In this document: positions 7,543-56,180 of the stretch, piece by piece
Position numbering within the stretch: position 1 is the stretch's first letter
Layout of the letters: the number at the start of each line of letters is the position of its first letter
Source of the DNA: Collinsella sp. An307
GTDB taxonomy: Bacteria > Actinomycetota > Coriobacteriia > Coriobacteriales > Coriobacteriaceae
Length of the DNA: 64,000 nucleotides
NCBI RefSeq assembly: GCF_002161805.1
Contig: NZ_NFIP01000005.1
Span: 124,001-188,000, forward strand
Reading direction: 5' to 3'
Notes under the pieces: generated by a model
The model's database searches: none
Told to the model about the DNA's origin: nothing
Seen by the model: the letters and a program-made list of their open reading frames with translations, nothing else
Program-made: the position numbers and the translations under genes

Positions 7543-7614
7543 GCCAGCGTGGCTCAACGGTAGAGCAAGTGATTTGTAATCACTGGGTTGCGGGTTCGAT
7601 TCCTGTCGCTGGCT
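7543..7614 (+). tRNA. tRNA-Thr (anticodon TGT)
   Basis: Acceptor GCCAGCG / CGCTGGC, D-arm GGCTCAACGGTAGAGC, anticodon stem AGTGA / TCACT around TTTGTAA (TGT), T-arm GCGGGTTCGATTCCTGT. No CCA is encoded. Confidence 0.95.
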
Positions 7615-7627
7615 CCCTTACACATCA

Positions 7628-7664
7628 AGCCCAGAGACCGATGGGGTCTCTGGGCTTTCGTTTT
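7628..7664 (+). terminator. Terminator after tRNA-Thr
   Basis: Twelve-pair perfect stem AGCCCAGAGACC / GGTCTCTGGGCT with a five-base loop, then TTTCGTTTT. The next 190 bases hold nothing I can support. Confidence 0.85.
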
Positions 7665-7853
7665 GCGAACCCGCCTCTGTTCGGAGCGTGGTGCGGGTGT
7701 GGCACCTTTTGGTGTTGACCGTACGCCAGTATCAAGAGGTTATGGTGGGTGTACGCGACAAGGGCGGTCCATGGGGTTTGTGTTGACCAAACTGACGCCT
7801 ATCAACTGCGAGAGCAGAAGACGGCAGCCCGCGCCGCGCCCCGTGAGCGAGGC

Positions 7854-10730
7854 CTAGCGGAGGATGCGCACCGCCACGCGATACGTTCCTGCGGCGTTGA
7901 TGCGGTACGGCTCCTCCACGTCCGACCCCCAGCTATCGATGCCGCCCACGCCGCGCATCGCGCCGTACAGGCACAGGTGCGTGCGCTCCGTTACGGGGAG
8001 CTCCTCGGGGTGCGCGGCGCTTTCAATCTCGAGTGCGCTCGCGGGAAGCGCCGAGAACGCGAACGGTTCCTCCTCCATAACGAACGCGATCTTGCCCGTG
8101 CAACGCTCGCCAGCATCGCGCACCGCGAGTTCAAGCTCGTGCGTGTGCATGTGGCAACCGCAGTCCTGTGGGACGAGGTAGGCGGGTACGTGCGGCTCCT
8201 CATGGTGGCGGCCAAAGGTGCCGCCGCGCCAGCGGTCGGGGTACGTCTCGCCCGAGAGGCCCGTCCAGGCAACGTCCGCGACAGGTAACGGGGTCACCAG
8301 GTGCACGCCAAAACACGGCAGCTCAGGTAGCCCCTCGGCACCGGTGTAGAGCGCCTCGACGAGCATGCCAGCACCTGCCTCAACGGTGTAGCGCAGGATT
8401 ATCTCCGCTCCGGGGACGACGTCTGCCGCAAAGCGGTACGCCACCACCACGCGGCGCGGGCCGAGCTCCTCCACGCGCTGATCCGTGCAGCGGCAGAACG
8501 CCTCTGCGGCGAGCCAGGCGGCGCTTCTTGCCGGGAAGCCGCACCCGCGGTCGTTATCGGTCGAGGCGCGCCAAAGCGCGGGCCGCGGTGCCCGCCAGAG
8601 CCACTCGCGCCCGTCCACGCGCAGGCTCACGGGTCCATGTTCCGCCCACGAGAAGAGGACGGAGAGCTCGCCGCACGTAACGCCAAGGTTCACATCGCCC
8701 TGCACGATTGCAAGGTCGGGTGCTTCTGCGGCACGTTCGCGCCGCGTCGCTGCCTGCACGGCAATCGTGCGTGTGCTCTGTGCCTCGGCAGCATCGCGTG
8801 CGGCATCGTGCGCGGCGCGCGCGGAGGCGTCTGCGTACCAGTAGCGCACCTCCTGCATCGCGGGCTTCTCAGTGCCGTCGGCAAAGACGATGCCGTCGCC
8901 GCTGAACGCGTAGTCGCTCGGTCGCTCGCCAAAGTCTCCACCGTAGCCCAGCGTGCGCCGTGCGAATGCATCGCGCCGCCAGAGGGCCTGGTCCATGTAG
9001 TCCCAGATAAAGCCTCCCTGGTACTGGTCAAACTCTTCGCCCAGACGCATATAGCTCTCCATGCCGCCCAGGCTGTTGCCCATGTCGTGCATGTACTCGC
9101 AGAGTATGAAGGGCTTTTTGGGCGAGCTCTCAAGGTAGCGGCGGATGTCCGTCGGCGTTGCGTACATGCGGCTCTCTACGTCCGAGGTCTCCTCCCATGT
9201 GGGGTCGTAGCCCTTGCGCCCCCGTGCTTGGAACACGCCTTCGTAATGAACGGGACGGCTCGGGTCCGCCTCGTGGAAGAAGCGGCTCATAGCGAGGATG
9301 GCATCGCCGGCGTACGACTCGTTGCCGCAGCTCCACATAAGGACCGCAGGATGGTTCTTGTCCCGCTCAAACATCGAGCGCGCGCGGTCGATGACGGCGG
9401 GTGTCCACGCGGCGAGGCTACCCGGTACGTTCCATGCGGGATCCACGGCTCCGAGCTTTTGCCAGCTGCCGTGGGTCTCGAGGTTTGCCTCGTCAATCAT
9501 ATAGATGCCGTTCTCGTCACAGAGGTCGTACCACGGCGTCTGATCGGGGTAGTGGCAGGTGCGTACGGCATTGATGTTGTTGCGCTTGAAGACCTCCATC
9601 GCGCGGAGCATGTCGTCACGTGCGATGGCACGGCCGCGCTCGGCGCTCCACTCGTGACGGTTTACGCCGCAGAAGAACAGGCGCTGCCCGTTGAGACGCA
9701 AGACGCCGTTCTCGATCCCCACGCGGCGAAAGCCCGTCCGCACGGTTGCGTGCTCCACCTCGCGTCCGGAGTAGAAGTCGACAAGCGCCACCTCGACCGT
9801 ATAGAGCGCCGGATGCTCGTGGCTCCAGGGGACGATGTTCTCGATTCGCAGGGGGCAAGCGAGCTCGACCGTGCGCGCGCCCTCCCAGGGGCAGTCTGCC
9901 TTCTCGACGTTCGTAAAGCCCGGCGCCCCCTCATAAAGCTTGGCCCCGTTCGCGTCCGTTATGCGCAGCTGCACAATGCACGACGCGAGCGTCTCGGCAT
10001 CGTTGGTGGAGGTAAGGGTGATGCGCGGGTCGAGTATGCCCGTGGTGTTGTCCATGCCGAGCCCGGCCCTCAGCCACACATCCTCAACATGCAGGCGCGG
10101 CTTGGCGTAGAGCACTACGGGACGGAAGATGCCAAAGAATCGGAACATATCTTGATCTTCCAGCCACGATGCGCTCGCGTGCTGAAAGACCTCGACGGCA
10201 AGGCGGTTCACCCCCGGGTGCAGATAGTCGGTGAGGTCAAAGTCGCTCGGGGTGAAGCTGTCCTCGGCGTAGCCTACAAAGCGCCCATTTACCCAGAGAT
10301 AGAAAGCGCGCTCAACGCCCTGGAAAGAGATGCATACGCGCATATCCTCCCATGCGGGGTCGAGCTCGAAGTCGCGCACATAACAGCCCACGGCGCAGCG
10401 ACTGGCGTCGATGGCGGGCGGACGCAGGTCGGAGATACCGTCCCAGGGGTATTGCGTATTCACATATTGGATTTGACCGTATCCCTCGAGCTCGATATGG
10501 GCGGGCACTTGGATGGTGCCAAAGCCGGAGAGATCGGCGTCTTCGCGCCAGAAGTCGCGCGGTCGCTCGTCTATGGAGGGAGCGTAGGCAAAGCGCCAGC
10601 TGCCGTCGAGCGAGCGCGTGCAGGTGCGCAGGGCGCCGCGCCACGTGTGGTCCGAGTGCGCGGGGAGCCGGTTCACCTCAAAGACCTCGGGGTCCTGGAG
10701 CCAGGCGAGGGTGGGGGACAAAGCGTTCAC
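7854..10730 (-). CDS. Beta-galactosidase, glycoside hydrolase family 2
   Basis: A 958-residue LacZ-type enzyme. Order: GH2 sugar-binding domain (WRGALRTCTRSLDGSWRF, VPAHIELEGYG), immunoglobulin-like domain, TIM barrel, small beta-domain and a C-terminal beta-sandwich. The acid/base Glu471 is in MWSCGNES and the nucleophile Glu545 in ILCEYMHDMGNS; NRHEWSAERGRA and FIWDYMDQALW are further active-site segments. No signal peptide, so it is cytoplasmic and likely hydrolyses lactose or galactosides. I chose GTG 10730 because GGAGG lies just upstream; the frame stays open far upstream without coding character. It stands alone, without a transporter beside it. Confidence 0.93.
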   Translation of the reverse strand: MNALSPTLAWLQDPEVFEVNRLPAHSDHTWRGALRTCTRSLDGSWRFAYAPSIDERPRDFWREDADLSGFGTIQVPAHIELEGYGQIQYVNTQYPWDGISDLRPPAIDASRCAVGCYVRDFELDPAWEDMRVCISFQGVERAFYLWVNGRFVGYAEDSFTPSDFDLTDYLHPGVNRLAVEVFQHASASWLEDQDMFRFFGIFRPVVLYAKPRLHVEDVWLRAGLGMDNTTGILDPRITLTSTNDAETLASCIVQLRITDANGAKLYEGAPGFTNVEKADCPWEGARTVELACPLRIENIVPWSHEHPALYTVEVALVDFYSGREVEHATVRTGFRRVGIENGVLRLNGQRLFFCGVNRHEWSAERGRAIARDDMLRAMEVFKRNNINAVRTCHYPDQTPWYDLCDENGIYMIDEANLETHGSWQKLGAVDPAWNVPGSLAAWTPAVIDRARSMFERDKNHPAVLMWSCGNESYAGDAILAMSRFFHEADPSRPVHYEGVFQARGRKGYDPTWEETSDVESRMYATPTDIRRYLESSPKKPFILCEYMHDMGNSLGGMESYMRLGEEFDQYQGGFIWDYMDQALWRRDAFARRTLGYGGDFGERPSDYAFSGDGIVFADGTEKPAMQEVRYWYADASARAAHDAARDAAEAQSTRTIAVQAATRRERAAEAPDLAIVQGDVNLGVTCGELSVLFSWAEHGPVSLRVDGREWLWRAPRPALWRASTDNDRGCGFPARSAAWLAAEAFCRCTDQRVEELGPRRVVVAYRFAADVVPGAEIILRYTVEAGAGMLVEALYTGAEGLPELPCFGVHLVTPLPVADVAWTGLSGETYPDRWRGGTFGRHHEEPHVPAYLVPQDCGCHMHTHELELAVRDAGERCTGKIAFVMEEEPFAFSALPASALEIESAAHPEELPVTERTHLCLYGAMRGVGGIDSWGSDVEEPYRINAAGTYRVAVRILR

Positions 10731-10898
10731 GGTGCCTCCAATCGGTTGGTTGGTGCCAGTGTAGCGCGCGCGGACCCATCTTGCCGACGCCTGCCGTTTA
10801 CCGCCCGAGCGCGCCGTCTGCCGATGCCGTAGCTGTAACGCTGCCGTCGCGTGCGCGGTGTGCTGTAATACGGGGACCAATGGGGTGGGGTGGTTTAT

Positions 10899-11438
10899 AT
10901 GGCTACGGGCAGCAAGAACGGAAAGAGGCGTCGCAGGAACCATCGCCGTCCAAACAGGCGCACGGTTGGTTCTTACATTGACGAGCCCTTTGGCCTTGTT
11001 ATGAACTGTTTCTTGGGGTTTTGGCTGTTCTGCACCCTGCCAACGTACTTCCTCACGCAGAACAAGGAGTACTTTTGGCAGTTCTACGGCCCGATTATCG
11101 TGCCGGCTCTTCTTATCATCATCGCGGTATGGGTTATTGGCGGTATCGTGAAGTATGGGGCCCGCGCGATAGTGGCTGTGCCCGTGCAGATGTGCTACAC
11201 CATCATTGTTCTGCTGGGGCTTGTCTGGCAGCTTATCGCTGCAATCGGCGAGGCAATCGGCCTGTCCGTCCCTATGTTTCTCACAGTGAGAACGCCGGGT
11301 GCGCCCACCGAGGACGGTCACTGGCACGACGAGCCGCGCGAGACGCCATCGAGCGGGCTCGGGACGTTCGAGCAGACCTATATTGCTTACAAAGGGACTA
11401 AGGCGCTGTTTGACAGCGACGAGCCGCGCCGTCGCTGA
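10899..11438 (+). CDS. Small membrane protein of unknown function
   Basis: A 179-residue protein divergent from the beta-galactosidase. A very basic N-terminus (GKRRRRNHRRPNRR) is followed by three hydrophobic spans at roughly residues 34-55, 64-90 and 97-125, then a ~50-residue hydrophilic tail. The basic head suggests an N-in orientation. ATG 10899 follows GGTGGGG; a GTG three codons upstream is also possible. I recognise no family. It lies before the tRNA-tuf unit but is separated from it by 150 bases and a strong promoter, so no functional link is implied. Confidence 0.65.
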   Translation: MATGSKNGKRRRRNHRRPNRRTVGSYIDEPFGLVMNCFLGFWLFCTLPTYFLTQNKEYFWQFYGPIIVPALLIIIAVWVIGGIVKYGARAIVAVPVQMCYTIIVLLGLVWQLIAAIGEAIGLSVPMFLTVRTPGAPTEDGHWHDEPRETPSSGLGTFEQTYIAYKGTKALFDSDEPRRR

Positions 11439-11588
11439 GGCACCGTCGCGCTCATTCGGAGCCCCAGCCGATCGGTGCGCCTTCACAACACGTTCACGAC
11501 AACGCGCCGCGCAGTAAAAGACGAATCAATAAAACCGCAGGAAACCCGAGTATAGATACGCCCGGTGGCGTGTATTTAAGCAAAGTGG

Positions 11589-11618
11589 TTGACAGGCACC
11601 GGCACCGCGTCGTACTAT
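11589..11618 (+). promoter_or_regulatory. Promoter of the tRNA-tuf unit
   Basis: Perfect -35 TTGACA, 18-base spacer, -10 TACTAT, 62 bases before tRNA-Tyr. It is the best -35 in the window, as expected for a stable RNA and elongation factor unit. Confidence 0.8.
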
Positions 11619-11679
11619 TCTTTCGCTCGCGGAGATGCTTAGCCGTCTGGCAAAAGCGCTTTGCGGGTCTTGCTTCTCT

Positions 11680-11764
11680 GGGAGTGTGCCCGAGTGGTTA
11701 ATGGGGACGGGCTGTAAACCCGTTGGCTCTGCCTACCAAGGTTCGAATCCTTGCGCTCCCACCA
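11680..11764 (+). tRNA. tRNA-Tyr (anticodon GTA)
   Basis: Acceptor GGGAGTG / CGCTCCC, anticodon stem ACGGG / CCCGT around CTGTAAA, long variable arm typical of tRNA-Tyr, encoded CCA. Confidence 0.95.
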
Positions 11765-11774
11765 GCAAGCAAGT

Positions 11775-11850
11775 GCCTGTATAGCTCAGTCGGTAGAGCA
11801 CTTCGTTGGTAACGAAGAGGTCACCAGTTCAAGTCTGGTTGCAGGCTCCA
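11775..11850 (+). tRNA. tRNA-Thr (anticodon GGT)
   Basis: Acceptor GCCTGTA / TGCAGGC, anticodon stem CTTCG / CGAAG around TTGGTAA, encoded CCA. It lies 10 bases after tRNA-Tyr. Confidence 0.95.
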
Positions 11851-11854
11851 GTAC

Positions 11855-11931
11855 GGCGGTGTAGCTCAGTTGGTTAGAGCACACGGTTCATACCCGTGGC
11901 GTCACTGGTTCGAATCCAGTCACCGCTACCA
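11855..11931 (+). tRNA. tRNA-Met, elongator type (anticodon CAT)
   Basis: Acceptor GGCGGTG / CACCGCT, anticodon stem CACGG / CCGTG around TTCATAC, encoded CCA. The anticodon stem lacks the three G-C pairs of initiator tRNA. Confidence 0.9.
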
Positions 11932-12024
11932 AGGTAACACGGTGGCTTTCCCACTCCGGGGGAGCCACTTAGGTTAAGAAGGCATTGTCCCCGCCGGGGA
12001 CGACCTTTGAAGGAGGAGGGCTAA

Positions 12025-13215
12025 ATGGCCAAGGAAAAGTTCGAGCGCACTAAGCCGCATGTTAACATCGGCACCATCGGCCACGTGGACCACGGTAAGA
12101 CCACGCTGACCGCCGCCATCACCAAGGTTCTCTCCGAGACCGAGGGCTGCAAGGCCGACTTCACGGCGTTCGAGAACATCGACAAGGCTCCCGAGGAGCG
12201 CGAGCGCGGCATCACCATCTCCGTTGCTCACGTCGAGTACGAGACCCAGAACCGTCACTACGCTCACGTTGACTGCCCGGGCCACGCTGACTACATCAAG
12301 AACATGATCTCCGGTGCTGCCCAGATGGACGGCGCTATCCTGGTCATCGCCGCTACCGACGGCCCCATGGCTCAGACCCGCGAGCACATCCTGCTCGCCC
12401 GTCAGGTCGGCGTTCCCTACATCGTCGTGTTCCTGAACAAGTGCGACATGGTCGACGACGAGGAGCTCATTGACCTCGTCGAGATGGAGACCCGTGAGCT
12501 CCTCTCCGAGTACGACTTCCCGGGAGACGACATCCCCGTCGTCCGTGGTTCCGCTCTCGGCGCCCTCAACGGCGAGGAGAAGTGGATGGATTCCGTCCGC
12601 GAGCTCATGGCCGCTGTTGACGAGTACATCCCGACCCCCGAGCGTGACGACGCCAAGCCGTTCCTGATGGCCGTCGAGGACACCATGACCATCTCCGGCC
12701 GTGGTACCGTTGCTACCGGTCGTGTCGAGCGCGGCGTGCTCAAGCTCAACGAGCCCGTCGAGATCGTCGGCATCAAGGAGACCCAGTCCTCCGTCGCCAC
12801 CGGCATCGAGATGTTCCGTAAGACCATGGACTTCTGCGAGGCTGGCGACAACGTCGGCATTCTGCTCCGTGGTATCAAGCGCGAGGACATCGAGCGCGGC
12901 CAGGTTCTCTGCAAGCCCGGCTCGGTGCACCCGCACACCAAGTTCACCGGCGAGGTCTACGTCCTCACCAAGGAGGAGGGCGGCCGTCACACCCCGTTCT
13001 TCGATGGTTACCGTCCGCAGTTCTACTTCCGTACCACTGACGTGACCGGCACCGTCAAGCTCCCCGAGGGCACCGAGATGGCCATGCCTGGTGACCACAT
13101 CACCATCGAGGGCGACCTCATCCACCCGATCGCCATGGAGGAGGGCCTGCGCTTCGCTATCCGCGAGGGTGGCCACACCGTCGGCTCGGGCGTTGTCTCC
13201 ACGATCATCGAGTAA
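12025..13215 (+). CDS. tuf: Elongation factor Tu
   Basis: A 396-residue GTPase that delivers aminoacyl-tRNA to the ribosome. Walker [10 protein letters not shown] is at residues 19-27, switch [10 protein letters not shown] follows, and the G-specificity motif NKCDMVD is present; domains 2 and 3 follow to the C-terminus. AAGGAGGAGGG lies before ATG 12025. A GC-rich hairpin (GTCCCCG / CGGGGAC) precedes the ribosome site in the leader. It is the last gene of a unit with three tRNAs, resembling the E. coli tRNA-tufB operon. Codons are strongly biased, as for a highly expressed gene. Confidence 0.99.
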
Positions 13216-13246
13216 CTTCGGTTATCCGGTAATCACGAGCTACCTG

Positions 13247-13283
13247 CAACCCGGTTCCCTCTCGGGGGAGCCGGGTTGTTTTC
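13247..13283 (+). terminator. Terminator of tuf
   Basis: CAACCCGG / CCGGGTTG outer stem with TTCCC / GGGAG inside, then TTTTC. Confidence 0.85.
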
Positions 13284-13412
13284 TGTCACGGTCGGTAGCA
13301 CTTGATCGATCTGCAGCCAGGTGAATCTGCGTGTCAAGATAATCTATCTGCGCACGAGCTACCTGAGGTTATGTATCGTTTCTGCAGACAGGCCGCCCGG
13401 CCTACCAGACCG

Positions 13413-13441
13413 TTGACGTAACATCCACGAGATGATAATGT
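13413..13441 (+). promoter_or_regulatory. Promoter of rpmG-secE-nusG
   Basis: TTGACG, 17-base spacer, TAATGT, 45 bases before rpmG. Confidence 0.7.
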
Positions 13442-13485
13442 AATCCACCGTGCCCGTCCGGGCGGTATTGGAGGTAATAAGTTTC

Positions 13486-13635
13486 ATGCGTACCCTAGTC
13501 ACCCTTGCATGCACCGAGTGCAAGCGTCGCAACTACACGACGACCAAGAACAAGGCCACCATGCCTGATCGCATGGAGATCAAGAAGTATTGCCCCTGGT
13601 GCCACCGTCACACGGTCCACAAGGAGACTCGCTAG
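13486..13635 (+). CDS. rpmG: 50S ribosomal protein bL33
   Basis: A 49-residue zinc-ribbon ribosomal protein: [20 protein letters not shown] with the first CxxC, and [15 protein letters not shown] with the second. The C+ form suggests zinc dependence. ATG 13486 has GGAGG 12-16 bases upstream; the open frame starting at 13450 includes the promoter-proximal leader and is too long for bL33. It heads the unit with tRNA-Trp, secE and nusG, matching rpmGB-secE-nusG in Bacillus. Confidence 0.96.
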
Positions 13636-13647
13636 TCTTCTAACCAT

Positions 13648-13723
13648 ACGCCAGTAGTTCAATTGGTAGAGCATCGGTCTCCAAAACCGAGTGTTGAGGG
13701 TTCGAGTCCTTCCTGGCGTGCCA
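13648..13723 (+). tRNA. tRNA-Trp (anticodon CCA)
   Basis: Acceptor ACGCCAG / CTGGCGT, anticodon stem TCGGT / ACCGA around CTCCAAA, encoded CCA. It lies between rpmG and secE, a common bacterial arrangement. Confidence 0.95.
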
Positions 13724-52336: not shown

Positions 52337-52371
52337 GGCCGGGTAGAGAAATCCTTGCGAGAAAGGTGCCT

Positions 52372-53802
52372 ATGGGCGGTTTCTTTGGGGCGGCTTCGCG
52401 CCGTGACGTGGTGCTTGACGTATTCTTTGGTGTCGACTACCACTCGCATCTGGGCACGCGTCGGGCGGGCATGGTGTTCTGCGAGGGGACCGGTGGGTTT
52501 CAAAAAGAAATTCACTCCATCGAGAATACGCCGTTCCGTTCGCGCTTTGATAAAGACCTCGAGCGCTTCCATGGCACAAGCGGCATCGGTTGCATTAGCG
52601 ATACCGACCCTCAGCCGCTGCTGGTGCGTTCGCACCACGGCACGTTTGCCATCACCACGGTAGGCATCATCAACAACGCTGACGAGCTGATCGACGCGTA
52701 CTTCGAACGCGGTGGTGCTCAGTTTATGGCGATGAGCTCCGGCGCCGTTAACGGCACTGAGCTTGTGGCAGCGCTCATCAACCAGAAAGACGACCTTGTC
52801 GAGGGCATCGCCTACGCCCAGAGCGTTATCGACGGTTCGCTCACCCTGCTCGTGATGACCGAGGACGGCACCATCTACGCGGCGCGTGACCGCATGGGCC
52901 GCCTGCCGGTGCTCATCGGCCGCGACGCGGCGGGGGAGGGCTACTGCATCTCGTTTGAGAGCTTCGTTTACCACAAGCTCGGCTACGAGGACGCCTACGA
53001 GCTCGGCTCGGGCGAGATCGTGCGCATCACCGCCGACGGTTTCGAGACGCTCGTTCCCGCGGGCGATCAGATGAAGATCTGCGCGTTCCTTTGGGTGTAT
53101 TACGGTTACCCCAACTCCAACTACGAGGGCGTGAACGTTGAGGTTATGCGCTACCGCAACGGCCACATCATGGCGCGCGACGAGCGCGAGGCCGGCACGC
53201 TTCCCGAGGTCGACTACGTTGCGGGCGTGCCCGATTCGGGCCTGCCGCATGCGATCGGCTATGCCAACGAGAGCGGTGCCACCTTCGCGCGTCCGTTCAT
53301 CAAGTACACGCCCACGTGGTCGCGTTCGTTCATGCCCACCAACCAGGAGGTCCGCGACCGCATCGCCGAGATGAAGCAGATTCCCGTGCCCGAGCTTATC
53401 GACGGCAAGAAGCTGCTTCTGGTCGACGACTCCATCGTGCGCGGCACGCAGCTCGGCAACACGGTCGACTTCCTGTACAACGCGGGCGCGACTGAGGTTC
53501 ACATGCGCTCCGCTTGCCCGCCGATCATGTTCAGCTGCAAGTACCTCTCGTTCTCTCGCGGCAAGTCCGATCAGGACCTCATTGCCCGCCGCGTGGTGCG
53601 CGAGCTCGAGGGCCCCGAGGGCGACAAGCACCTCGACGAGTACGCCGACAGCACGACCGAGCGCGGCCAGTGCATGCTGAAGAGGATCTGCGAGCAGCTG
53701 GGCTTTGACAGCCTCGGCTACCAGAGCCTCCCGGGCATGCTCGAGGCGATTGGCATCGACCCCACGAAGGTCTGCACCTATTGCTGGGACGGCAAGGAGT
53801 AG
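52372..53802 (+). CDS. PurF-like phosphoribosyltransferase lacking the amidotransferase Cys
   Basis: A 476-residue protein with the two-domain layout of amidophosphoribosyltransferase. The N-terminal Ntn domain begins MGGFFGAASRRDVVLDVFFG, where PurF has the processed catalytic Cys (C-G-I-F/V-G); Gly stands in its place. The C-terminal domain keeps the PRPP-binding motif LLLVDDSIVRGTQ and the conserved end CTYCWDG. GAGAAAGG precedes ATG 52372. It may use free ammonia or a different amine or glutamine route, or act as a regulator. It is annotated as purF in many genomes, but that function is doubtful here. Confidence 0.8.
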   Translation: MGGFFGAASRRDVVLDVFFGVDYHSHLGTRRAGMVFCEGTGGFQKEIHSIENTPFRSRFDKDLERFHGTSGIGCISDTDPQPLLVRSHHGTFAITTVGIINNADELIDAYFERGGAQFMAMSSGAVNGTELVAALINQKDDLVEGIAYAQSVIDGSLTLLVMTEDGTIYAARDRMGRLPVLIGRDAAGEGYCISFESFVYHKLGYEDAYELGSGEIVRITADGFETLVPAGDQMKICAFLWVYYGYPNSNYEGVNVEVMRYRNGHIMARDEREAGTLPEVDYVAGVPDSGLPHAIGYANESGATFARPFIKYTPTWSRSFMPTNQEVRDRIAEMKQIPVPELIDGKKLLLVDDSIVRGTQLGNTVDFLYNAGATEVHMRSACPPIMFSCKYLSFSRGKSDQDLIARRVVRELEGPEGDKHLDEYADSTTERGQCMLKRICEQLGFDSLGYQSLPGMLEAIGIDPTKVCTYCWDGKE

Positions 53803-54304: not shown

Positions 54305-54426
54305 GGTTCAATGGAGTTGCAAAATTGAACCTCTGTATTTCGAAAACGTGCTATACTCGCTTGAAATTGAACTTTGAACCATAACTTTGAACCAATGAGG
54401 TTCAAATACGAAGGAAGTTCAATTTC
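54305..54426. promoter_or_regulatory. Array of TTGAAC/GTTCAA operator-like boxes
   Basis: Seven TTGAAC or GTTCAA boxes in 122 bases: GTTCAA at 54306, TTGAAC at 54325, 54367, 54374 and 54387, GTTCAA at 54400 and 54417. Three are arranged as perfect dyads: GGTTCAAT / ATTGAACC, TTTGAACC-5-GGTTCAAA and GAAATTGAACTT / AAGTTCAATTTC. A TATACT -10 lies at 54352-54357. This is probably the control region of the downstream XRE fusion. Confidence 0.7.
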
Positions 54427-54506
54427 AGTAAGCGCGTTCTAGGCGCGCTTCTGAGGTGCGTTTATCCGAGCGCTGCCGGAGGCGGTGCTGTTCAAGGGGA
54501 GACCGT

Positions 54507-56180
54507 ATGCCGCACGAACTGTTTGCCGAGCGCCTGGGCGTAGCGATGACCGCCTCCGGCCTCAACCAGGTGGGCCTCATCCGTGCGGCGGCATCCCGCG
54601 GACGCAAGCTCGGCAAAAGCCAGGTAAGTCAATATGTAAGCGGCAAGACGCTTCCGCGCCGAGATGTTATGGCGCTTCTCGCCGATGTCCTTGAGGTGGA
54701 TGCGGCGTGGCTCGCTGGCGGCACCGGTGGCGCCGTCGGCACCGACGCGCCCGACGCGGCCCAGCCGGCGGGCACAGCCCAGACCGCCGACGCCCCCGGC
54801 TCTCCGGACGCGGCGCAGTCCTCGCACGCTGAGGCAGCTCCCCCCGGACGAGCTTCCGGGCGGCTTGAGACCGCCCCGCCAAACGGCGATGCCCGTCGCG
54901 GGAACGAGAAGGGGAGTGCTGCGGGCAGGAAGAGCCCGACGCCTACGCAAGGGAGCAGAAACATGCGCGATTTCAAGAAGTCCAACAAACTCGATAACGT
55001 TCTGTACGATGTGCGCGGTCCGGTGGCCGACGAGGCTGCCCGCATGGAGGATGAGGGCCTGCGTATCTTGAAGCTCAACATCGGCAACCCGGCCCCCTTT
55101 GGTTTCCGCACGCCCGATGAGGTTGTGGCCGATATGCGCCAGCAGCTTCCGGACTGCGAGGGCTACTCAAATTCCAAGGGCCTCTTCTCTGCGCGTAAGG
55201 CAATCATGCAGTACGCGCAGCTGAAAAACATCCCCAACGTCTCCATGGACGGTATCTACACGGGCAACGGTGTCTCGGAGCTCATCCAGCTGTGCATGAA
55301 CGCGCTGCTCGACACCGGTGACGAGATTCTCATCCCGAGCCCCGACTATCCGCTCTGGACCGCCTGCGCCACCCTCGCCGGCGGCACACCCGTGCACTAC
55401 GTGTGCGACGAAGAGGCCGAGTGGAACCCCGATCTGGCGGACATGGAGTCCAAGATCACAAGCAACACTAAGGCCATCGTCATTATCAACCCCAACAACC
55501 CCACCGGTGCGGTCTACCCGCGCGAGGTGCTTGAGGAGATTGTCGAGATCGCTCGTCGGCACCAGCTCATGATCTTCTCGGACGAGATCTACGACCGCCT
55601 CTGCATGGACGGCATCAAGCACATCTCCATCGCCGCGCTCGCGCCCGATCTGCCCTGCGTGACGTTCTCCGGCCTTTCCAAGAGCCACATGATCGCGGGC
55701 TACCGTATCGGATGGATGATTCTCTCGGGCAACAAGCGCTGCATGAAGGATTTCATCTATGGCATCAACATGCTCTCCAACATGCGCCTGTGCTCGAACG
55801 TCCCTGCGCAGTCCATCGTCCAGACCGCGCTCGGCGGCTACCAGAGCGTGGAGCGCTACGTGGAGCCGGGCGGCCGCATCTACGAGCAGCGCGAGTTTGT
55901 CTACAAGGCGCTGAACGAGATTCCGGGCATCACCGCCGTCAAGCCCAAGGCCGCGTTCTACATCTTCCCCAAGATGGATGTAGAACGCTTCAACATCACC
56001 GATGACGAGCAGTTTGCCCTCGACCTGCTGCACGAGAAGCGCATCCTCATCACCCGTGGCGGCGGCTTCAACTGGGCAAAGCCCGATCACTTCCGTATCG
56101 TGTACCTGCCGCGTATGGAGGTGCTGCGCGAGGCTCTCGCCGACCTTGCCGATTTCTTTGCGCACTACCGTCAGGCTTAA
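54507..56180 (+). CDS. XRE helix-turn-helix fused to an AlaA/AlaT-type aminotransferase
   Basis: A 557-residue fusion. Residues 1-70 form an XRE-type DNA-binding domain (ERLGVAMTASGLNQVGLIRA, KSQVSQYVSGKTLPRRDVMA). An Ala/Pro/Gly linker (about 75-150) joins it to a class I aminotransferase: LNIGNPAPFGFRTPDEVV, IINPNNPTGAVY, SDEIYDRLC and the PLP Lys392 in SGLSKSHMIAGYRIGW. An internal ATG 54963 has AAGGGAG at ideal spacing and would give a stand-alone 405-residue enzyme, the size of E. coli AlaA. It likely makes alanine from pyruvate and glutamate and may sense PLP or alanine. AGGGGAG precedes ATG 54507. Confidence 0.88.
   Translation: MPHELFAERLGVAMTASGLNQVGLIRAAASRGRKLGKSQVSQYVSGKTLPRRDVMALLADVLEVDAAWLAGGTGGAVGTDAPDAAQPAGTAQTADAPGSPDAAQSSHAEAAPPGRASGRLETAPPNGDARRGNEKGSAAGRKSPTPTQGSRNMRDFKKSNKLDNVLYDVRGPVADEAARMEDEGLRILKLNIGNPAPFGFRTPDEVVADMRQQLPDCEGYSNSKGLFSARKAIMQYAQLKNIPNVSMDGIYTGNGVSELIQLCMNALLDTGDEILIPSPDYPLWTACATLAGGTPVHYVCDEEAEWNPDLADMESKITSNTKAIVIINPNNPTGAVYPREVLEEIVEIARRHQLMIFSDEIYDRLCMDGIKHISIAALAPDLPCVTFSGLSKSHMIAGYRIGWMILSGNKRCMKDFIYGINMLSNMRLCSNVPAQSIVQTALGGYQSVERYVEPGGRIYEQREFVYKALNEIPGITAVKPKAAFYIFPKMDVERFNITDDEQFALDLLHEKRILITRGGGFNWAKPDHFRIVYLPRMEVLREALADLADFFAHYRQA

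Follow-up and report, generated by a model that had tools for sequence, protein, structure and literature searches.

Regulators of the MocR/GabR/PdxR type carry an N-terminal helix-turn-helix (HTH) domain attached through a flexible linker to a domain with the class I aminotransferase fold, control their own promoter and bind repeated operators spaced by helical turns (PMC5320631), all of which are traits shared with the locus described here, where promoter control and operator binding are inferred from sequence. The trigger enzymes PutA, BirA and NadR, like the present protein as read from its sequence, are metabolic enzymes with a DNA-binding domain, PutA being a single-target autorepressor (PMC8249747). 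In the phage TP901-1, the operator OL, 5'-AGTTCATGAAACGTGAACT-3', contains the half-site TGAACT, and the CI repressor, which has a flexible linker and needs dimerisation for tight binding, binds two half-sites as a dimer far more tightly than an isolated head does (PMC4941734). AlaA of E. coli forms dimers, with an N-terminal arm that reaches into the active site (PMC4094517). Shorter in-frame products from internal starts have been described for Cas11b, made from cas8b (PMC11899642), and for the N-terminal proteoforms of Salmonella (PMC11005335).

The present analysis concerns a 64,000-nucleotide stretch of Collinsella sp. An307 (NZ_NFIP01000005.1, positions 124,001 to 188,000, hereafter the window), in which one gene joins a phage-repressor-like HTH domain to an AlaA-like aminotransferase. 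No prior description of such a fusion was found in the literature, restricted to open-access work. We consider it rather probable that this gene as a whole is a trigger-enzyme autorepressor of its own promoter that also yields the free enzyme, its products and DNA binding being inferred.

Organisation of the fusion gene

An earlier reading of these letters without database searches (the sequence-only reading) had described an HTH domain linked to a complete AlaA-like enzyme, the PLP lysine being residue 240 of a 405-residue internal product as in E. coli AlaA, and had set this XRE version apart from the GntR-type domain of MocR proteins. Its coordinates, frame and lengths (557 and 405 residues, the latter from the ATG at 54963) were found correct, and the architecture was supported by Pfam, by alignment to E. 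coli AlaA (4cvq) and by the reading frame (Table 1). From the look of their translations, we take the upstream gene (52366-53802) to be PurF-like and the downstream one (56460) to be GalU-like, so that the fusion gene seems to stand alone. The Rfam search over the window returned tRNAs only and no leader RNA, its sole matches being five tRNA genes at 7543-13720.

Table 1. Features of the fusion locus, in window positions
Feature	Position	Strand	Remarks
Outlying half-site GTTCAA	54306..54311	-	
Putative operator AAATTGAACCT	54322..54332	+	exact consensus; end of TTGAAC lies 21 nt ahead of the -10 box
Probable -10 box TATACT	54352..54357	+	-10-like box recurs in relatives
Putative operator AAATTGAACTT	54364..54374	+	exact consensus; at predicted transcription start
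Putative operator half-site TTGAAC	54374..54379	+	
Putative operator half-site TTGAAC	54387..54392	+	
Putative operator half-site GTTCAA	54400..54405	-	inverted
Putative operator AAATTGAACTT	54415..54425	-	exact consensus, inverted
Half-site GTTCAA	54490..54495	-	overlaps full-length Shine-Dalgarno; may be chance
Shine-Dalgarno AAGGGGAG of full-length start	54494..54501	+	duplex -8.3 kcal/mol
Full fusion ORF	54507..56180	+	557 aa, HTH - linker - AlaA-like aminotransferase; ATG 54507 to TAA 56180
Cro/CI-type (XRE) HTH, residues 4-71	54516..54719	+	Pfam HTH_3, TP901-1 CI N-terminal domain, pLDDT
Hypervariable Ala/Pro-rich linker, residues 74-152	54726..54962	+	low complexity; predicted disordered
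Internal Shine-Dalgarno AAGGGAG	54949..54955	+	duplex -7.6 kcal/mol; AAAGGAG/AAGGGAG kept in relatives
Internal start codon ATG	54963..54965	+	Met1 of E. coli AlaA; in frame, 405 aa product
AlaA-like aminotransferase, 405 aa	54963..56180	+	active-site residues intact
PLP lysine codon	55680..55682	+	K392 of fusion = K240 of short product

Pfam HTH_3 was matched by the N-terminal part at 25.4 bits for a cut-off of 23 (21.9 in the scan of the whole protein) and by 16 of 16 relatives at E<=0.01; the domain also matches HTH_31, and no match to GntR was obtained for it. The distinction from MocR proteins drawn by the sequence-only reading thus holds, the HTH being of the XRE superfamily and not GntR. 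Membership of the MocR family was rejected on the same ground, although the aminotransferase-fold criterion was met. A search with the HTH profile identified the N-terminal domain of the phage TP901-1 CI as the nearest solved structure (E about 2e-15), the recognition-helix region, KLGKSQVSQYVSGK, having KLxKSxxSQYV in common with it. Matches of the profile to BurrH were discarded, no single repeat being significant. Structure prediction, with one plasmid-derived row left out of its input, gave a five-helix domain with a pLDDT of 96-98 over residues 11-70 and values below 50 over most of linker residues 78-150. Only these confidences for HTH and linker were used, because the lobes of the enzyme part were misplaced relative to 4cvq (rmsd about 20 Å); the fold lists were full of aminotransferases and uninformative on the HTH. 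Stand-alone proteins of 120-237 aa carrying the same HTH family occur in Clostridia (locus L204 in genome G539, and L209-L220); they are possibly the source of the fused domain and are perhaps phage repressors.

Residues 153-557 of the fusion align with E. coli AlaA from Met1 onward without a gap (E 7e-163, 56% identity) and match the class I aminotransferase fold (Aminotran_1_2, E 8.5e-57). K240, Y15, R18, Y129, Y210 and R378 of AlaA are all conserved with identical numbering in the short product, and K392 of the fusion is invariant across 41 relatives. The active site is thereby intact as judged from these residues, the alanine/2-oxoglutarate activity itself being inferred. The enzyme is called AlaA-like because the NCBIfam equivalog test was not met, the best model, NF006230, scoring 363.8 bits for a cut-off of 534. 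For 41 diverse relatives, the majority-residue fraction averages 0.67 over the HTH and 0.85 over the enzyme, and falls to 0.17 over the linker.

Distribution of the fusion and unfused copies

A search for the fusion in relatives, suggested as a check by the sequence-only reading, retrieved it by whole-protein comparison in nearly all 65 genomes of the family and by the HTH profile in 142 of the 296 Coriobacteriia genomes, in at least four families of a single order, the Coriobacteriales, throughout which it is found; the frames matched by the profile nearly always measure about 490-590 aa. Beyond the class, the profile gave no match in a sample of the phylum. The names of order and families rest on named contigs and on what is generally known of this group. 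At practically every one of the approximately 150 loci, which come from independent genomes and belong to two phyla, the frame runs without a break over about 490-594 aa; the only shorter one among the HTH matches of the family (genome G019) is broken by Ns. The fusion also occurs sporadically in Lachnospiraceae and relatives, with five clear cases in 391 genomes of their class, and is carried by eight Lachnospiraceae or Clostridiales contigs and by a Roseburia plasmid.

The latter, NZ_CP135163.1 of Roseburia sp. 831b (243 kb; locus L066, 4906-9485), encodes a fusion that shares approximately 71% identity with the one in the window; its neighbours are pdxT, pdxS and a gene of the PLP-dependent aminotransferase family. 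A transfer between phyla is probable for this copy, and its neighbourhood makes a link of the fusion to PLP supply possible.

The enzyme alone served as query against 23 Coriobacteriales genomes devoid of the fusion: a close AlaA was lacking in 22, of which two are incomplete assemblies, and one had an unfused copy. This AlaA (genome G187, contig C64, locus L243) starts exactly at the internal Met, behind GAAGGAGG, a strong Shine-Dalgarno (SD) sequence; upstream of it the HTH has been lost, and no operator is present in 800 nt. The unfused Lachnospiraceae copies L106 and L107 likewise have this Met as their start, preceded by an SD.

Conservation of an internal translation start

The sequence-only reading had noticed the internal AAGGGAG well spaced before the ATG at 54963 and had suggested that one gene may make both a regulator-enzyme and a free enzyme. 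The spacer proved to be 7 nt, and the duplex energy (-7.6 kcal/mol) is near the -8.3 of the full-length start; between 54456 and 54963, no other in-frame start candidate is stronger than -3.0. Among 146 distinct junctions of relatives, with an SD counted when of at least 4 nt and the start codon in frame, 138 have an ATG with an SD and two a GTG with an SD (L190, L205), two are weak and four have no start at all. Over 127 distinct internal contexts, such an SD is present in 99%, against 31% for control Met codons of the enzyme, and its mean energy is -7.69 kcal/mol against -3.91 under a synonymous-codon null and -3.67 ahead of 1794 control Met codons elsewhere in these enzymes. Averaging by genus, over 35 genera, still leaves an excess above the synonymous null (Wilcoxon p about 1e-4); in the Atopobiaceae genera g22, g34 and g75 the SD is not stronger than this null. 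Relatives share ancestry and are not independent, and these counts therefore overstate the evidence.

Across the 41 relatives, the majority-residue fraction is 0.35 over the SD-bearing codons and rises to 0.90 for the Met. The residues that the SD encodes change (QRS, ARS, GGS, PGS, EGR, REV, KEE) and the AAGGAG-like SD stays, so that, as read from these alignments, DNA rather than peptide is conserved at the junction. In several lineages the Met is shifted by 1-4 codons (MSDAIRTF, MTTPVRTF, MPRRQF, MSTREF) and remains at SD distance, moved ATGs at SD spacing being found in L024, L029, L031, L061 and L111. The local fold leaves the internal SD only modestly open (P unpaired 0.37). Taken as a pattern of sequence conservation, this clearly indicates selection on an internal translation start. 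The start is absent in L158, L164, L178 and L183, though fusion and operators are kept there; as these belong to four different genera, the internal start can be lost and is not universal, and the free enzyme is not indispensable. Relatives keeping the linker and losing the ribosome site would have contradicted the sequence-only reading; the opposite was seen, the linker being unconserved and SD and ATG persisting across about 35 genera. Of its two-product proposal, a conserved start for the enzyme alone is upheld by the 138 of 146 junctions, with the reservation of the four lineages without it; the products themselves remain inferred, without experimental proof.

A conserved array of putative operators at the promoter

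In the upstream regions of 147 loci (about 309 nt each), TTGAAC/GTTCAA is seen 626 times against 19.7 expected from shuffles, the same genes giving flat controls in the coding sequence of the HTH (10 against 7.9 expected) and of the enzyme (34 against 35.8 expected). The aligned operator consensus is AAATTGAACTT, with AAAATGAACTT as the Lachnospiraceae version. Half-sites are most commonly spaced by 42, 7, 21, 10, 32-33 and 19 nt (31 nt also being seen), and the commonest distance of TTGAAC from a -10-like box among relatives is 10 nt downstream (30 occurrences). TGAACT, the half-site of TP901-1 OL, is the core of this motif, which was found without knowledge of OL. The sequence-only reading had not seen the array, which makes the regulator half of its proposal concrete, no binding data being available.

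The motif is confined to the locus. AAATTGAACY occurs three times in the whole 2.2-Mb genome, always at the fusion promoter, and in a class-wide scan 75 of 93 exact sites of fusion-bearing genomes, counted by hand, lie at the fusion gene; the other 18 are single and nearly all within ORFs. A wider regulon was rejected, the AAATTGAACYT sites elsewhere being of this kind, and with two mismatches allowed the real pattern was not commoner than a reversed control. Several genomes of genus g3 share one AAATTGAACTT site close to where a conserved ORF begins (MTAKKKFNFKAPLEVFAKS...; L224, L227, L228, L231); though conserved, this site is probably a codon coincidence.

Half-sites also lie inside linkers, upstream of the internal start, at 24 loci (e.g. 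L131, L154, L163, L164): counted up to the internal Met, 30 are seen against 2.7 expected, or 4.1 under the synonymous null. They could act as an intragenic roadblock or control an internal promoter; the linker of the window gene has none. An excess of GTTCAA in linkers counted up to the enzyme was dismissed as false, because MREFK is coded by GAGTTCAA.

Proposed mechanism and alternative explanations

In the reading that we favour, the full-length form would carry its phage-CI-like HTH on a flexible linker attached to a complete AlaA enzyme, an aminotransferase of the alanine/glutamate type, whose dimerisation would pair two HTH heads. The paired heads may then bind pairs of TGAACT half-sites around their own -10 box, and full-length dimers would repress transcription by covering this box and the transcription start. 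Initiation at the internal ATG would provide a head-less enzyme supplying activity, the subunits of which could pair with full-length ones and weaken DNA binding, so that the ratio of the two starts would set the strength of the feedback. Since AlaA is dimeric with its N-terminal arm in the active site, the enzyme part can be the dimeriser and perhaps the sensor, the state of cofactor or substrate possibly passing through this N-terminal "plug" arm, to which the linker attaches. The evidence for a two-start, self-controlling gene is strong at the level of sequence, because an entire bacterial order retains the layout, although no protein has been measured; production of both proteins, binding of the HTH to the array, repression, mixed dimers and any response to a ligand are inferred. 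That the short product acts as an anti-repressor built into the gene, its mixed dimers titrating HTH subunits and the start ratio setting a single-gene feedback gain read through the state of PLP or substrate, is a tentative extension that we do not hold to be the likelier case.

Were only the full-length protein made, the internal Met would be a relic of the old start of the enzyme and the SD-like sequence incidental, which would suit the four lineages that manage without an internal start and the genera lacking an SD excess over the synonymous null. A relic would however be expected to decay in a linker of such low identity, whereas SD and ATG are retained in the great majority of junctions despite the changing peptide, the shifted ATGs and the GTG replacements that keep the SD, and we regard this explanation as unlikely. 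The position of the SD exactly at the domain boundary would also fit a slowing of elongating ribosomes that lets the HTH fold before the enzyme, without any initiation; a pause would not require a start codon, whereas an ATG or GTG has been retained at SD distance even where it has moved, and the internal Met matches the start of unfused enzymes, leaving this possibility very improbable.

The autorepressor reading also has to be weighed against an HTH that activates, or against a MocR-like sensor of PLP or amino acids with a wider regulon. MocR proteins can act as activators as well as repressors and recognise direct or mixed repeats that lie whole helical turns apart (PMC5320631), to which the spacings of 10, 21, 31-33 and 42 nt can be likened, and the Roseburia fusion has pdxST and the PLP-dependent aminotransferase-family gene as neighbours. 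Against this, the operators flank the -10 box and cover the probable transcription start, and the strong motif is restricted to the fusion gene; we judge it a minor possibility, slightly more credible than exclusive synthesis of the full-length protein, and recognise that the preference for repression over activation is inferred from operator position alone. An assembly or annotation artefact joining two adjacent genes, in favour of which nothing was seen, can be set aside with near certainty, as the continuous frame of the relatives in two phyla already refutes it.

Implications

If the autorepressor reading is true, a phage-repressor-type head has been placed on a core amino-acid enzyme of which the same gene also provides the free form, in a layout conserved throughout an order to which common gut bacteria belong. 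The locus would constitute a compact feedback circuit within one gene, open to testing, and an example of an internal translation start under clear selection. Genetic tools are available for Coriobacteriia (PMC9734109). Database entries naming only an "aminotransferase" of roughly 520 aa would then overlook a transcription factor and also a second protein.

Comparison with known systems

The internal products of Cas11b and Salmonella rest on starts proven by experiment, which is not the case here, and in the fusion it is a transcription-factor domain that the longer product adds to an enzyme. E. coli AlaA has no HTH, and its plug residue I17 is replaced by V17 in the fusion enzyme (4cvq, PMC4094517). 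In TP901-1 CI a helical C-terminal domain dimerises, a role presumably taken by the AlaA part in the fusion, and the half-sites at the fusion promoter are mostly further apart than those of the phage (PMC4941734). PutA, BirA and NadR combine other enzymes with another HTH, and the second start of the fusion would in addition yield a head-less enzyme (PMC8249747). The HTH of MocR regulators is winged and of GntR type, in contrast with the Cro/CI-type of the fusion, their sensor domain is merely aminotransferase-like whereas the fusion conserves the whole AlaA active site, and the operator motif of the fusion differs in being confined to its own gene (PMC5320631). The locus has a MocR-like layout arrived at by way of another HTH family, with an inferred second product in addition; to our knowledge, no internal start has been reported in MocR proteins.
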